Source of the DNA: Pseudolabrys sp.
GTDB lineage: Bacteria > Pseudomonadota > Alphaproteobacteria > Rhizobiales > Xanthobacteraceae
Assembly: GCA_009694265.1 (NCBI GenBank)
Contig: SHVM01000010.1
Location: 1 to 44,170, forward strand
Length of the DNA: 44,170 nucleotides
Reading direction: 5' to 3'
Below, piece after piece: positions 652 to 28,909 of this stretch. Numbering within the stretch: position 1 is the first letter of the stretch; every line of letters starts with the position of its first letter. The notes beneath the pieces are model-generated. The model searched no databases and was not told the DNA's origin. It saw only the letters and a program-made list of their open reading frames with translations. The position numbers and the translations under genes were made by a program.

Positions 652-1920
652 ATGACCGAGACCGACGGGACGCGGCCCTTCTCGCCGTTCGAATGGATGC
701 TGTCGCTGCGCTACCTGCGGGCGCGGCGCAAGGAAGGATTCATCTCGGTCATCGCCGGGTTCTCCTTCCTCGGCATCATGCTGGGCGTCGCCACCCTCAT
801 CATCGTAATGGCGGTGATGAATGGGTTCCGCAAAGAGTTACTCGACAAGATTCTCGGCCTCAACGGCCATCTGCTGATCCAGCCACTGGAAAAGCCGCTG
901 ACCGATTGGGAGGAAGTCGCCGCCCGCATCGCCTCCGTCAAAGGCATCAAGCTCGCCGCGCCCATTGTCGAAGGCCAGGCGCTGGCGTCCTCACCGTTTA
1001 ATGCCGGCGGCGTGCTCATTCGCGGCATCCGGCTGATGGATATGGAAAAGCTTCCCTCCATCATCAACAACATCAAGCAGGGCTCGCTCGGCGGCTTCGA
1101 CGAAGGGCAGGGGGTTGCCATCGGACGCCGGCTCGCCGACCGGCTCTCCTTGCGTTCCGGCGACAATATCACGCTGGTGGCGCCGCGCGGCGCGGTGACG
1201 CCGATGGGCACCACACCGCGCATCAAAATCTACAAGATAGCGGCGGTGTTCGAGATCGGCATGTCGGAATACGATTCCTCCATGGTGTTCATGCCGCTGA
1301 AGGAAGCGCAGGCCTATTTCAACCGCGCCGGCGATGTCACCGCGATTGAGGTCTATACCGACAATCCCGACCGCGTCGACCGCTACCGGAAAGAGGTGAC
1401 CGACGCCGCCAAGCGGCCGATCTACATGATCGACTGGCGGCAACGCAACGCGACCTTCTTCAATGCGCTGCAGGTCGAGCGCAATGTGATGTTCATGATT
1501 CTAACGCTCATTGTGCTGGTCGCCGCGCTCAACATCGTGTCCGGTCTGATCATGCTGGTGAAGGATAAAGGGCAGGACATCGCGATCCTGCGCACCATGG
1601 GCGCCACACAAGGCGCCATCATGCGCGTGTTCCTGATCACCGGCGCGGCCATCGGCGTCGTTGGCACCATGGTCGGTTTCCTGCTCGGCGTGGTGATCTG
1701 CTTTAATATCGAGAGCATCCGGCAATTCATGTCGTGGCTCACCAGCACCGAGCTGTTCTCGCCGGAGCTTTATTTCCTTTCGCGGCTTCCCGCCGAGATG
1801 GATACTGGCGAGACCACCGCGGTGGTGGTGATGGCGCTCACGCTCTCGCTGCTCGCCACCCTCTATCCGTCCTGGCGCGCGGCGCGCCTCGATCCGGTTG
1901 AGGCGCTGCGCTATGAGTGA
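652..1920 (+). CDS. lolC: Lipoprotein-releasing ABC transporter permease LolC/LolE
   Basis: Inner-membrane permease of the Lol system, which extracts mature outer-membrane lipoproteins from the inner membrane and passes them to LolA. The 422-residue protein has the LolC/E N-terminus ([20 protein letters not shown]), a first membrane segment at about 31-56, a large periplasmic domain to about residue 270, and three C-terminal membrane segments in the FtsX/MacB-type permease fold ending [17 protein letters not shown]. Alphaproteobacteria usually have one hybrid LolC/E protein, and no second permease gene is seen here. The ATG at 652 gives the expected family N-terminus. The stop overlaps the lolD start by 8 bp, so the two are probably translationally coupled. 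Confidence 0.93.
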
Positions 1921-2644
1921 CACTCTCGCCGATGCGAATGTCGAGGCGGCCGAGGGAGAGCAGGACATCCCGATCCTGTTTCTGCAAGGGGTCGAGCGTC
2001 ACTACCAGCAGGGTGACGCCACGCTGCATATTCTCAACGGCGCGGAACTGGCAATCTGGGCCGGGCAATCGGTGGCGCTGGTGGCGCCGTCGGGCGCCGG
2101 CAAATCGACGCTGCTGCATATCGCCGGACTGTTGGAGCATCCCGACCACGGCGACGTCTTTATCGACGGCCGCGCCACCGCGGGCCTGCCCGATCATGAG
2201 CGCACGCGCATCCGCCGCAACGAAATCGGCTTCGTCTATCAGTCGCACCATCTGCTGCCGGAATTCACCGCGCTGGAAAACGTGCTGCTGCCGCAGATGA
2301 TCCGCGGCCTCACGCGCGACGAGGCACGCAAGCGCGCGGTGGAACTGCTTGGCTATCTCGGCCTGCAAGCCCGGCTCAATCACCAGCCGGCGGAACTCTC
2401 CGGCGGCGAACAGCAGCGCGTGGCGATTGCGCGCGCGGTCGCAAATGCCCCAAGGATTTTGCTGGCCGACGAGCCGACCGGCAATCTCGACATCCGTACC
2501 GCCGATCACGTTTTCGCCGCTCTGACGCAGCTCGTGCGCGCCTCGGGTCTGGCCACCATCATCGCCACCCACAACATGGAACTCGCCGCCCGCATGGACC
2601 GGCGGGTGACGTTGCGGGACGGGCAGGTGGTGGAGATGGAGTAG
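1913..2644 (+). CDS. lolD: Lipoprotein-releasing ABC transporter ATPase LolD
   Basis: Cytoplasmic ATPase that powers LolC/E. The 243-residue protein shows all ABC signatures in order: Walker A (PSGAGKST, about residues 63-70), Q-loop ([12 protein letters not shown]), signature [14 protein letters not shown], Walker B with catalytic Glu ([12 protein letters not shown]) and the switch His (IIATHNMEL). I chose the ATG at 1913, which lies inside the last codons of lolC, giving MSDTLADA. An in-frame start at 1898 would add only five residues and deepen the overlap. The gene ends a two-gene operon; the next transcription unit begins in the SOS-type promoter about 100 bp downstream. Confidence 0.95.
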
Positions 2645-2737
2645 GGGGCGTGGACTAACCCGAAGCAACACATTTCGTATATAACCAATTGAAATAAATA
2701 GTATTTTTGGCGGTTACCGGGCGCCGATATTTGGCGT

Positions 2738-2766
2738 TTGACAAAGAACATAACAGGAACTATGTT
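2738..2766 (+). promoter_or_regulatory. SOS promoter: -35 and -10 boxes flanking a LexA box
   Basis: TTGACA at 2738-2743 and TATGTT at 2761-2766 are separated by exactly 17 bp, an excellent sigma-70-type promoter. Its spacer is almost entirely a GAAC-N7-GAAC element (GAACATAACAGGAAC, 2746-2760), the reverse complement of GTTC-N7-GTTC, the LexA operator of Alphaproteobacteria. LexA bound there would block RNA polymerase. Transcription would begin near 2773, just before the ribosome binding site of the 32-codon ORF. An AT-rich stretch at about 2676-2712 could serve as an UP element. Confidence 0.8.
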
Positions 2767-2792
2767 CCCTGTCCGTTCTGGGGAGATATTCC

Positions 2793-2891
2793 ATGTTCAA
2801 AGCCGTTGTTCAAGAAGCCGCCGCCCTCGCATCGCTGACGTTGTTCGTGAGCATGATCGCTATCTGGTCGCAGGTCTTCAGTAACCTGTGA
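2793..2891 (+). CDS. SOS-controlled single-pass membrane microprotein, SidA-like candidate
   Basis: A 32-codon ORF (ATG 2793, TGA 2889) with a strong Shine-Dalgarno run GGGGAGAT at 2780-2787, seven bases before the ATG. The peptide begins MFKAVVQEAA and has a hydrophobic helix from about residue 9 to 29, with one Lys near the N-terminus, Trp25 and Gln27 near the far end, and the C-terminus SNL. This fits a small inner-membrane protein. It stands alone behind a LexA-box promoter, between lolD and dnaE. Caulobacter SidA is an SOS-induced inner-membrane peptide of about 29 residues that blocks division at the late divisome (FtsW/FtsN). Size, topology, regulation and, as far as I recall, location next to dnaE all match. 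Homology and function are inferred, not shown. Confidence 0.75.
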   Translation: MFKAVVQEAAALASLTLFVSMIAIWSQVFSNL

Positions 2892-2919
2892 AAACGTTCA
2901 GCAACCTCTAATCCGTAAT

Positions 2920-3022
2920 CGTCATGGCCAGGTCCCGGCCATCCACGTCGTTGGTTTCGCGTTGAGTTTAAAGATGTGGATGCCCGGCCCAAGGTTGAAG
3001 GGCCTTTGGGCCGGGCATGACG
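2920..3022. repeat. Large intergenic palindromic repeat upstream of dnaE
   Basis: The outer arms are CGTCATGGCC (2920-2929) and GGGCATGACG (3013-3022). An inner pair, 2935-2949 against 2973-2987, matches at 13 of 15 positions and contains ATCCACGTC / GATGTGGAT. The right half also folds on itself: GCCCGGCCCAA (2982-2992) is perfectly complementary to TTGGGCCGGGC (3006-3016). Two alternative folds are therefore possible. The sequence resembles a dispersed non-coding repeat class common between genes in Bradyrhizobium-type genomes (recognised by memory only). No ORF or T-tract is associated with it. Apart from this repeat, the microprotein and its promoter, I see nothing else in 2645-3147. Confidence 0.65.
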
Positions 3023-3147
3023 AACCAAGGGCACGCGCGATCCCGCGACGCGCCCTGGGAAAAGCGGGCATAGCCTGCCGATGTGCGGCTGAAGTGGTGG
3101 ACTTAGCGCGCTTGCATGCTCACTTTGGATGAGTGAGAGAATCATCC

Positions 3148-6100
3148 ATGTCCAACCTCGATTTCGTGCACTTGCACGTGCACTCGTCCTATTCGCTGCT
3201 GGAAGGCGCGCTGCCGATTGCGCGGCTCGCAGATCTCGCGAAGGCCGACAAGCAGGCCGCACTCGCGCTCACCGACACCGACAACATGTTTGGCGCGCTC
3301 GAGTTCTCTGAAAAGCTCGCGGGTAGCGGCATCCAGCCGATCATCGGCTGCGCACTGGCGATCGATTTCGGCGACACTGATCACGGCGCGCGCAACGCCA
3401 ATGCGCAGCCCGACCGTTCGCGCATCGTACTACTCGCCACCAGCGACGCCGCCTATCGCAGCCTGATGCGGCTGTCCTCGCGCGCCTTCATGGATTCAGC
3501 CCCGAACGAGCCACCGCGGCTCAAGCTCGAATGGCTCGCGGGCGAGACGGACGGCATCATCGCGCTCACTGGCGGCCCGGGCGGCCCACTCGATTCGGCG
3601 ATTGCCGCCGGCCAAAGCCAGATCGCAACCGCGCGGCTCGACGCGCTGCTCAACTTGTTTGGCGACCGGCTCTATATCGAGTTGCAGCGTCACGGCACCG
3701 CCCATGAGCGCATGACCGAGCCGGTGCTGATCGATCTCGCCTACCGCAAAAACATTCCGCTGGTCGCCGCCAACGAGCCGTATTTCGCGACCGCCGCCGA
3801 CCACGAGGCGCATGACGCTTTGATCTGCATCGCCGAAGGCCGTTTTGTGTCGGAATCCGACCGTCGCCAGCTTAATGCCGAGCATCGCTTCAAAAGCCGC
3901 GCCGAGATGCGCGAGCTGTTCGCCGATCTGCCGGAGGCGCTCGCCAATACCGTCGAGATCGCGCAACGTTGCGCATTCCGTCCGCTCACGCATCAGCCAA
4001 TCCTGCCGCGCTTTTCGCTCGGCGAGGGCGGCAGCGTGGTCGACGAGGCGGAGGAGTTGCGCAAGCGCGCCGAACTGGGCCTCACGCAGCGGCTCACCAC
4101 CGCGGGCCTGGCGCCCGGGCACAGCACGGATGAATACCGCGAGCGGCTCGACTTCGAGCTCGGCGTCATCGCCGGCATGAAATATCCCGGTTACTTTTTG
4201 ATCGTCGCCGATTTCATCCAGTGGGCGAAGGCGAAAGGCATTCCGGTCGGGCCCGGCCGCGGCTCCGGTGCAGGCTCGCTCGTTTCCTACGCGCTCACCA
4301 TTACCGATCTCGATCCGATCCGCTTCGGGCTATTGTTCGAGCGCTTCCTCAATCCCGAGCGCGTGTCGATGCCCGACTTCGACATCGACTTTTGCCAGGA
4401 CCGTCGCGACGAAGTGATCCGCTACGTGCAGGAGCGTTACGGCCGCGACCAGGTAGCCCAAATCATCACCTTCGGCACCTTGCAAGCGCGCGGCGTGCTG
4501 CGCGATGTCGGCCGCGTACTACAAATGCCCTATGGCCAGGTCGACAAGCTGTGCAAGCTGGTGCCGCAAAATCCGACCAGTCCGATCTCGCTGGCGCAAG
4601 CCATTGAGGGCGAGCCGAAACTGCAAGCCGAGCGCGACGGCGATCCGGTGGTCAAGCGCGCCTTCGACATCGCCCGAAAACTCGAAGGCCTCACGCGCCA
4701 CGCCTCAACGCACGCCGCCGGCATCGTGATCGGCGACCGCCCGTTGACGGAACTCGTGCCGCTCTATCGCGATCCGAAATCCGACATGCCGGTCACCCAG
4801 TTCAACATGAAATGGGTGGAGCAGGCGGGCTTGGTGAAATTCGATTTTCTCGGCCTGAAAACGCTCACCGTGCTGCAGACCGCAGTCGCACTGGTGGCGC
4901 GGCGCGGCATCGAGATCGATCTCACCGCCATCCCGCTCGACGACAAGGGCACCTACGATCTGCTGGCGCGCGCCGAAGCGGTCGGTGTGTTTCAGCTGGA
5001 AAGCGCCGGTATGCGGCGCGCGCTGCTCGACATGCGGCCCGACCGTTTCGAGGACATCATCGCGCTGGTCGCGCTCTACCGCCCCGGCCCGATGGCGAAT
5101 ATCCCGACCTATTGCGCGCGCAAGCACGGCATGGAGCAGCCGGATTACATTCATCCCAGGCTCGAGCCGATCCTGAAGGAAACCTTCGGCGTCATCGTCT
5201 ATCAGGAACAGGTGATGCAAGCTGCGCAAATTCTGGCCGGCTTCACACTCGGCCAGGCGGATCTGCTGCGCCGCGCCATGGGCAAGAAGATCAGAAAAGA
5301 AATGCAGGCGCAGCGCAACGATTTCGTCGAAGGCGCCATCAAGAACAATATCGAACGCTATCAGGCCGACGCGATCTTCGATCTACTCGAGCGTTTTGCC
5401 GAATACGGCTTCAACAAGAGCCACGCCGCCGCCTATGCGCTGGTCGCCTATCAGACCGCTTACATGAAGGCGAATTATCCGGTCGAATTTCTGGCTGCGA
5501 CCATGACGCTCGACATGGGCAATACCGACAAGCTCGCTGAATTTCGCGCCGAAGCCGAGCGTCTCGGCATCAAGGTCGATCCGCCGTCGATCAATCGCTC
5601 GCACGCGGCTTTCGAGGTGGACGGCAACACCATCGTCTATGCGCTGGCAGCCCTCAAAGGCGTCGGCAAGCAGGCGGTGGAGACGATCATCGAAGCGCGC
5701 TCCGCCGCCAAATTTGCCGATTTGGCTGATTTCGCGAGCCGCGTTAATCCGCGCGCCATCAACAAGCGCGTGCTGGAAAGCCTTGCCTGCGCCGGCGCCT
5801 TCGATGCGTTCGAGCCCAACCGTGCGCGCGTCATGGCCGCGGTCGATAGTGTGCTCGGGCGCGCGCAACGTGCGCATGAGGGCGCCGAGCTCGGCCAGAG
5901 CGAATTGTTCGGTGGCGGGACGCAGCGCGAGCCGATTATGCTGCCGCCGATGGAGCCGTGGCTGCCGGCGGAACGGCTGCGCCGCGAATATGACGCAGTC
6001 GGGTTCTTTCTGTCTGGCCATCCGCTCGACGATTACGCCACCGTGCTCAAAAAACTGCGCGTGCAATCGTGGGCGGAATTCTCGCGCGCGGTGAAGATGG

Positions 6101-6597
6101 GCGCGACGGCGGGCAGGGTAGCCGGCACCGTGGTGTCGCGCACCGAGCGGCGCACGCGCACCGGCAGCAAGATGGGCATTTTCGGGCTGTCCGATCCGAC
6201 CGGCCATTACGAGGCGATTATTTTCTCGGAAGGATTGGCCGAGCATCGCGATCTGCTCGAGCCTGGCACCGCGGTGCTGTTGTTTCTGTCGGCCGAGGTC
6301 CAAGGCGACGAGGTGCGCGCCCGCATCCAGTCGGCCGAGCCGCTCGATCAGGCTGCCGCCAATCTGCACAAAGGCCTGCGGGTTTTCCTGCGCGATGGCG
6401 CCCCGATTGAGGGCGTGGCTAAGCGGCTTGAGCCGGCGTCCCGCGCGAGCAACGGCGACGGCGAAGTGAGCATGGTGCTGATGCTCAAGCAAGGCACCGA
6501 GGTCGAGGTGAAACTTCCCGGCCGCTTCAAGGTCTCGCCGCAAATCGCCGGCGCCATCAAGGCGGTGCCCGGCGTGGTGCAGGTCGAGGCGGTCTAG
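3148..6597 (+). CDS. dnaE: DNA polymerase III alpha subunit
   Basis: Catalytic subunit of the replicative polymerase; 1149 residues, the usual length. The N-terminal PHP domain starts with FVHLHVHSSYSLLEGA. The C-family polymerase core follows, with GRGSGAGSLVSYA and the metal-binding Asp pair in PDFDIDF (about D410/D412). The third catalytic Asp is in VKFDFLGLKTL (D566). Fingers and beta-clamp regions include YGFNKSHAAAYALVAYQT. A C-terminal OB fold starts near RVAGTVVSRTERRT. Start choice: ATG 3148 gives the family N-terminus MSNLDFVHLH; an in-frame GTG at 3133 would add MRESS. A CTCACT/AGTGAG hairpin (3119-3137) lies over the start region. This is the housekeeping DnaE, not the mutagenic DnaE2. 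Confidence 0.96.
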   Translation: MSNLDFVHLHVHSSYSLLEGALPIARLADLAKADKQAALALTDTDNMFGALEFSEKLAGSGIQPIIGCALAIDFGDTDHGARNANAQPDRSRIVLLATSDAAYRSLMRLSSRAFMDSAPNEPPRLKLEWLAGETDGIIALTGGPGGPLDSAIAAGQSQIATARLDALLNLFGDRLYIELQRHGTAHERMTEPVLIDLAYRKNIPLVAANEPYFATAADHEAHDALICIAEGRFVSESDRRQLNAEHRFKSRAEMRELFADLPEALANTVEIAQRCAFRPLTHQPILPRFSLGEGGSVVDEAEELRKRAELGLTQRLTTAGLAPGHSTDEYRERLDFELGVIAGMKYPGYFLIVADFIQWAKAKGIPVGPGRGSGAGSLVSYALTITDLDPIRFGLLFERFLNPERVSMPDFDIDFCQDRRDEVIRYVQERYGRDQVAQIITFGTLQARGVLRDVGRVLQMPYGQVDKLCKLVPQNPTSPISLAQAIEGEPKLQAERDGDPVVKRAFDIARKLEGLTRHASTHAAGIVIGDRPLTELVPLYRDPKSDMPVTQFNMKWVEQAGLVKFDFLGLKTLTVLQTAVALVARRGIEIDLTAIPLDDKGTYDLLARAEAVGVFQLESAGMRRALLDMRPDRFEDIIALVALYRPGPMANIPTYCARKHGMEQPDYIHPRLEPILKETFGVIVYQEQVMQAAQILAGFTLGQADLLRRAMGKKIRKEMQAQRNDFVEGAIKNNIERYQADAIFDLLERFAEYGFNKSHAAAYALVAYQTAYMKANYPVEFLAATMTLDMGNTDKLAEFRAEAERLGIKVDPPSINRSHAAFEVDGNTIVYALAALKGVGKQAVETIIEARSAAKFADLADFASRVNPRAINKRVLESLACAGAFDAFEPNRARVMAAVDSVLGRAQRAHEGAELGQSELFGGGTQREPIMLPPMEPWLPAERLRREYDAVGFFLSGHPLDDYATVLKKLRVQSWAEFSRAVKMGATAGRVAGTVVSRTERRTRTGSKMGIFGLSDPTGHYEAIIFSEGLAEHRDLLEPGTAVLLFLSAEVQGDEVRARIQSAEPLDQAAANLHKGLRVFLRDGAPIEGVAKRLEPASRASNGDGEVSMVLMLKQGTEVEVKLPGRFKVSPQIAGAIKAVPGVVQVEAV

Positions 6598-28874: not shown

Positions 28875-28909
28875 GAACGAACACTATCTGTTCTATATGT
28901 GTTCCGCAA
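28875..28909 (-). promoter_or_regulatory. lexA promoter with overlapping LexA half-sites
   Basis: On the plus strand GTTC 28890-28893, N7, GTTC 28901-28904 is a perfect GTTC-N7-GTTC LexA box. The GTTC at 28890 is also spaced seven bases from GAAC 28879-28882, and another GAAC abuts it at 28875-28878. Three half-sites thus repeat every 11 bp, one helical turn. On the minus strand a weak promoter, TTGCGG (28909-28904) N17 TAGTGT (28886-28881), would have the box in its spacer, as in the microprotein promoter at 2738-2766. The rest of the moeA-lexA gap (28799-28943) holds nothing else recognisable. Confidence 0.75.

Follow-up and report, generated by a model that had tools for sequence, protein, structure and literature searches.

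In the window, by which we mean the whole 44,170-nucleotide stretch of DNA that was analysed, a 32-codon ORF lies between a lolD-like ABC ATPase gene and dnaE, on the strand of both (Table 1). It is preceded by a sigma-70-type promoter that can be read directly as TTGACA (2738-2743), a 17-nt spacer (2744-2760) and TATGTT (2761-2766); the promoter scan found 1 site, and shuffled sequences give 0.3 on average. A first-pass annotation of the sequence had already recognized this promoter and an exact GAAC-N7-GAAC box in its spacer, and had proposed control by LexA through that one box. The box is indeed present, but a second exact box, opposed to the first, had been overlooked; it begins within the -10 element, and the two boxes together span the spacer and the -10. 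The predicted ribosome-binding site lies five bases from the ATG, or seven, as first reported, when the count starts from GGGGAG. Downstream, dnaE starts 256 nt beyond the stop codon of the mini-ORF, and no terminator-like site was found by a scan of the + strand between the two. The same interval contains a perfect 13-nt inverted repeat (2980-3018), which did not score as a terminator and could be a palindrome of the interspersed type.

Table 1. Features of the mini-ORF locus and of the lexA locus in the window.
Feature	Position	Strand	Basis
lolD-like ABC ATPase, upstream neighbour (name from finding and context)	1913..2644	+	PF00005
Sigma-70-type promoter TTGACA-N17-TATGTT	2738..2766	+	sequence reading and promoter scan (10/12 matches)
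LexA box 1, GAACATAACAGGAAC, GAAC-N7-GAAC, inside promoter spacer	2746..2760	-	motif scan
LexA box 2, GTTCCCTGTCCGTTC, GTTC-N7-GTTC, opposed to box 1	2764..2778	+	motif scan
Ribosome-binding site GGGGAGAT, purine-rich, predicted	2780..2787	+	sequence reading
Mini-ORF of 32 codons (proposed sidA); product SidA-like, a predicted membrane peptide with a single helix	2793..2891	+	conservation, dN/dS, model
dnaE (DNA polymerase III alpha), downstream neighbour	3148..6597	+	TIGR00594 1200 bits, over cut-off
lexA ORF, coordinates excluding its stop codon	28088..28855	-	TIGR00498 187 bits, over cut-off (L256:699-1466)
LexA box GTTCTATATGTGTTC ahead of lexA	28890..28904	+	motif scan

Translation of the mini-ORF gives a peptide of 32 amino acids, MFKAVVQEAAALASLTLFVSMIAIWSQVFSNL, for which the structure model predicts one helix (residues 2-31, mean pLDDT 96.5), in agreement with the single hydrophobic helix of the first-pass annotation. 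The peptide matches no model of Pfam, NCBIfam or PHROGs.

The sequence GTTCN7GTTC is listed as the LexA box consensus in Table 1 of PMC9578287. This motif occurs 4 times in the window, where 1.3 occurrences would be expected (a count of 4 is reached in 3 of 100 shuffles), and 51 times in the genome of the organism, against 78 matches of a reversed control pattern, so that there is no enrichment. On these counts a single box is weak evidence. In the organism's genome, however, copies of the motif are found ahead of lexA, recA and uvrA, and its SOS genes can therefore be said to carry the box. The lexA gene with its own box is situated about 25 kb from the peptide gene in the same window; the ORF in Table 1 uses the first start, and the likely true start, MLTRKQ, is 19 codons further in. 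At places selected by us (44 of the 51 were examined, with AT-rich cores picked and ten adjoining ORFs scanned), boxes also precede ORFs matching RadA, ParC and, below cut-off, RecD2. Four genes with a box in their vicinity are possible SOS members: one for a radical SAM protein of the PA0069 type (L248), one for a RecD2-like helicase (L260), radA (L270) and parC (L274).

Conservation of the peptide and its box pair within the family

Of 198 genomes of the window's family, its own genome included, 148 were matched by the peptide at E<=10 and about 146 at E<=1e-3. Among the best 30 loci (window included), every peptide has exactly 32 residues, both exact boxes are present in 28, dnaE is on the strand of the peptide ORF in all 30, and a lolD match is found upstream in 22, in flanks no longer than 1.5 kb. 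Forty further stretches, picked because their identity was low or their genus label differed, consisted of 37 ordinary matches, two second copies and one diverged form (L350), and dnaE is on the peptide strand in 36 of them. The 30 best loci and the 37 ordinary matches make up a set of 67 loci, from which the two second copies and L350 are excluded. In this set, which contains the window's locus, both exact boxes occur within 80 nt of the ATG in 59 loci, the exact layout GAACN7GAACN3GTTCN7GTTC in 53, and TTGAC with a GAAC no more than 12 nt after it in 61. It is the conserved box pair, rather than either box alone, that exceeds chance.

Across 2211 pairs of peptide genes from the 67 loci, pN/pS is 0.37, and dN/dS is approximately 0.32 over the 797 pairs with pS<0.6; the entropy per codon position is 0.86/0.34/1.36, third positions being the most variable, and the 96 nt downstream of the ORF are not conserved (unaligned entropy, 1.89 bits). 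By these sequence measures the ORF is evolving as a protein. Conservation by chance, or of a non-coding kind, was considered and is ruled out by the codon-level evidence together with the box pair. The first-pass annotation had named, as the outcome that would speak against it, a peptide that is not conserved in relatives or is kept only as DNA; the matches across the family and the excess of synonymous over amino-acid-changing substitutions are the reverse of this. W25 and L12 are found in all 63 distinct family peptides, and an acidic residue at position 8 and K/R at position 3 in 62 of the 63 each; a test for a conserved face of the helix gave P values of 0.04-0.29.

The 50 family genomes without a match and two with a poor match were searched for dnaE, which is present in 44 of the 52, and 30 of these loci were examined. 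A diverged 32-residue peptide with both boxes was found at three, and a similar peptide fragment, truncated by the edge of the stretch, at one (L296); two others comprised one with just 28 nt upstream and one where the dnaE motif was absent. At the remaining 24 the 600 nt in front of dnaE contain no exact box, a criterion that an altered box or a longer gap would escape. Several genera of the family thus seem, from these sequences, to lack the peptide ahead of dnaE; the family loci with neither an exact box in that range nor a peptide match include L282-L284, L289, L290, L292-L295 and L301-L309. Relocated copies were sought with the pattern GAACN7GAACN3GTTC in 36 peptide-less family genomes and were rejected, as the 13 matches, in 12 genomes, compare with 9 for the reversed control, and the first ORFs listed in the 260 nt around them include no similar peptide. 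At one of these places (L361), a 47-residue hydrophobic ORF lies 185 nt past the start of the box.

The dnaE upstream region in other families and the probable sidA locus of Caulobacter

Since a 19-row family profile failed to reach outside the family in 385 class genomes, where it found only the window peptide and one other family member (the rest being partial matches with E>0.01), the locus rather than the sequence was used to reach SidA. dnaE was found in 185 of 193 genomes of the class, the window's own included, and 89 of the other 184 were examined (29 returned loci and 60 further down the list, smaller genomes and some others being omitted). An exact minus-strand box is located 100-560 nt ahead of dnaE in 17 of these 89 other-family genomes and in none of the other 72. 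At 16 of the 17, a hydrophobic ORF of 25-50 residues (ATG or GTG) starts within 80 nt of the box; dinucleotide shuffles yield, per 89 genomes, 0.62 boxes and 0.017 pairs of box and mini-ORF. When only ATG starts are counted, hydrophobic mini-ORFs accompany 15 of the 17 loci with a box, as opposed to 4 of the 72 without one (Fisher P 1.2e-11, with limits fixed after a first look and with related genomes that are not independent, the 16 loci spanning 10 family labels). A LolD-like sequence is found upstream at 16 of the 17 box loci, and at 15 of the 16 that also have a mini-ORF; lolD alone is of little informative value, because 41 of the 72 box-less loci have such a match as well. The peptide had initially been thought of as a feature of a single order, a restriction that has to be given up, as the arrangement is present in 16 of the 89 other-family genomes and 14 of these 16 belong to other orders.

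SidA is described in PMC4211646 as an inner-membrane, SOS-induced division inhibitor of 29 aa that interacts with FtsW. For Caulobacter and Phenylobacterium, PopZ served as the marker and gave 80 loci; ten of their genomes were searched, and dnaE was found in nine. All nine have a hydrophobic ORF of 29-30 residues just ahead of dnaE, approximately 135-160 nt from the dnaE match and with one hydrophobic stretch, although in four of them the mini-ORF requires an internal ATG of a longer frame. An exact LexA box is present at seven of the nine loci, and a lolD-like match within the 1.5-kb flanks at three. The comparison with SidA made in the first-pass annotation is thus upheld at the level of the locus. 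In C. vibrioides OR37 (L364) a permease gene and lolD are followed by a nucleoside hydrolase gene on the opposite strand, the mini-ORF and dnaE, which differs from the window in that the hydrolase gene separates lolD from the peptide; the hydrolase gene probably starts some 100 nt away from the LexA box.

The Caulobacter mini-ORF is probably sidA itself, an assignment made from its size, its box and locus numbers. One passage of PMC10769358 gives sidA as CCNA_02004; dnaE and recN appear as CC1926 and CC1983 in PMC1839093, and recN as ccna_02062 in a passage of PMC12700426. Should the resulting numbering offset of 79 apply here too, the locus numbers of sidA and dnaE would differ by about one. 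The window locus resembles that of SidA in its promoter and predicted LexA sites of the form GTTCN7GTTC, in peptide size (32 versus 29 aa), in the single hydrophobic helix predicted by the model, and in its position just ahead of dnaE and downstream of lolD. It differs in that most loci of the window's family have two opposed boxes, compared with an exact box at seven of the nine Caulobacter and Phenylobacterium loci, and in that the peptide sequences are only weakly similar. A literature search, mostly of open-access journals, listed no report of a SidA or SOS peptide outside Caulobacter. To judge by paper titles, the name SidA is also borne by other proteins.

The similarity of the sequences was assessed with a profile of the 63 distinct family peptides. 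Against eight distinct Caulobacter and Phenylobacterium peptides, permutation P values range from 0.008 to 0.16, with six of the eight below 0.02 and seven sharing one register; hhalign with the seven 29-residue peptides gave P 0.00067 and a probability of 27% over 26 columns. Fourteen of the 16 other-family mini-ORFs were scored (L085 is identical in sequence to L075, and L088 is close to L087). The score of a further sequence, L299 (g10), was not used, being inflated by the presence of the same sequence (L350) inside the profile. P values below 0.05 were obtained for 8 of the 14 with full shuffles and for 7 with hydropathy classes kept, and three (L069, L199 and L235) show no similarity to the family profile (P>0.38). 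From another family of the same order, L061 gave P 0.0002 and L063 P 0.085. The best registers of the other-family mini-ORFs vary, and that of L075 differs from the one in the MAFFT alignment. In this alignment the cores of the window-family, Caulobacter and other peptides are joined without internal gaps, and Caulobacter and window-family peptides share a common AL.S...F..M pattern. An acidic residue occupies one column before the helix in all window-family rows shown (one column earlier in the g10 row), in the Caulobacter set and, by eye, in 10 of the 14 other-family mini-ORFs. Given so weak a resemblance to the Caulobacter sequences, the case for orthology is built on locus, control, size and hydropathy; the evidence for shared descent is moderate from sequence and strong from context. 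We infer common descent with the Caulobacter ORF despite this weak similarity. Two points are new here, the link to SidA that the locus provides for the peptide and the recurrence of this arrangement across several families of the Alphaproteobacteria.

Proposed role of the peptide and alternative explanations

The mini-ORF very probably encodes a SidA-type SOS inhibitor of cell division. In such a model, LexA bound to the two opposed boxes over the promoter would silence the peptide gene, and DNA damage, through RecA-driven cleavage of LexA, would free the promoter. The 32-residue peptide would then be made and inserted into the inner membrane as one helix, presumably with its N-terminus in the cytoplasm and K/R3 on the inside. 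Its helix may contact FtsW, for which there is one match in the organism's genome, and the FtsW/I/N complex, as in the case of SidA. Holding this complex inactive would delay septal wall synthesis until repair and so arrest division.

Small membrane peptides with comparable functions are known from other bacteria. YneA of Bacillus, SosA of Staphylococcus and ChiZ of Mycobacterium are described in PMC13396833 as SOS- or damage-induced small membrane division inhibitors; in this 2026 study YneA interacts with TM7 of FtsW, and an FtsW interaction is predicted with low confidence for SosA, ChiZ and SidA. YneA and ChiZ are reported to have a LysM domain, whereas the window peptide consists of the predicted helix alone. 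DidA of Caulobacter is likewise small, has a single helix and inhibits division through the FtsW/I/N complex, but is described as 71 aa long, SOS-independent and DriD-induced (PMC4211646). SulA of E. coli provides an SOS division checkpoint too, but acts on FtsZ, according to the same paper. The first-pass annotation had stated that Rhizobiales lack the SulA checkpoint, and PF03846 is indeed without a match in the organism's genome (91% complete), the E. coli control being detected.

Alternatively, the peptide could be a membrane toxin under LexA control, similar to TisB and DinQ, which would depolarize the membrane or slow growth under SOS conditions instead of acting specifically on the divisome. 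Its size, hydrophobicity and predicted SOS control are like those of DinQ- and TisB-type single-helix peptides. Such peptides are paired with antisense RNAs, as reported for DinQ, but no promoter-like site was found by a simple consensus scan of the opposite strand at 2600-3200, and Rfam has no match in 2500-3300, so that there is no sign of a type I antisense RNA at the window locus, although a new RNA might escape both searches. The strict conservation in the helix (W25, L12 and the acidic residue 8) is better explained by a protein partner, and the Caulobacter ORF occupies the same locus. A toxin of this kind is therefore unlikely.

The LexA promoter might instead serve a damage-inducible dnaE, with the mini-ORF as a leader peptide or translational coupler. 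The strand, the distance of dnaE and the lack of terminator-like sites described above are compatible with this arrangement, but the ORF is conserved as a protein and the 96 nt that follow it are not, in other families the box lies anywhere between about 194 and 454 nt from the start of dnaE, and around two second copies of the peptide no match to dnaE is seen over about 1 kb, all of which makes a leader function quite improbable. Least likely of all is an SOS-induced single-helix regulator of another membrane target that independently replaced SidA at the locus, since the weak similarity to the Caulobacter peptides, and its absence for 3 of 14 others, has to be set against cores that MAFFT aligns without gaps, a shared acidic column before the helix, and the repeated invention at one locus under 10 family labels that would be required in place of simple descent.

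On balance the evidence leans towards SidA being an old SOS division checkpoint that is shared among Alphaproteobacteria and not peculiar to Caulobacter. It would have been retained in a lolCD-sidA-dnaE block and would have escaped notice by falling below gene-calling limits and diverging beyond the reach of sequence searches, with some copies carried by prophages and perhaps stopping division of the host. Such a checkpoint would fill a gap in the understanding of how Alphaproteobacteria that lack SulA halt division upon DNA damage. The rule of the locus (a LexA box and a hydrophobic mini-ORF ahead of dnaE) yields candidates where sequence searches fail, and the highly diverged natural variants obtained with it could be tested against FtsW for the positions that matter.

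Further copies of the peptide were encountered away from this block. With the 32-residue consensus, tblastn found no match in phage or plasmid collections, nor did the prophage-type peptide find one in phages, searches in which the low-complexity filter may mask such peptides; a degenerate pattern had no match in viral_contigs. One second copy (L365, G120:C6:111165-111254) overlaps the end of an ORF of the ProQ/FinO family and lacks an exact box throughout 5 kb of sequence, and a further one (L368, G114:C34:6034-6123) has neither GTTC nor GAAC in the preceding 120 nt. A second SidA-like peptide in another genome, MIRLMAKEVAALLSLLAFCGMISVWAMVLS (L366, G140:C1:2803263-2803352), is flanked by genes for a CI-like repressor and a phage integrase, with the nearest LexA-type box about 2 kb upstream, beside the repressor; judged from its sequence surroundings, this is a copy in a prophage-like region.
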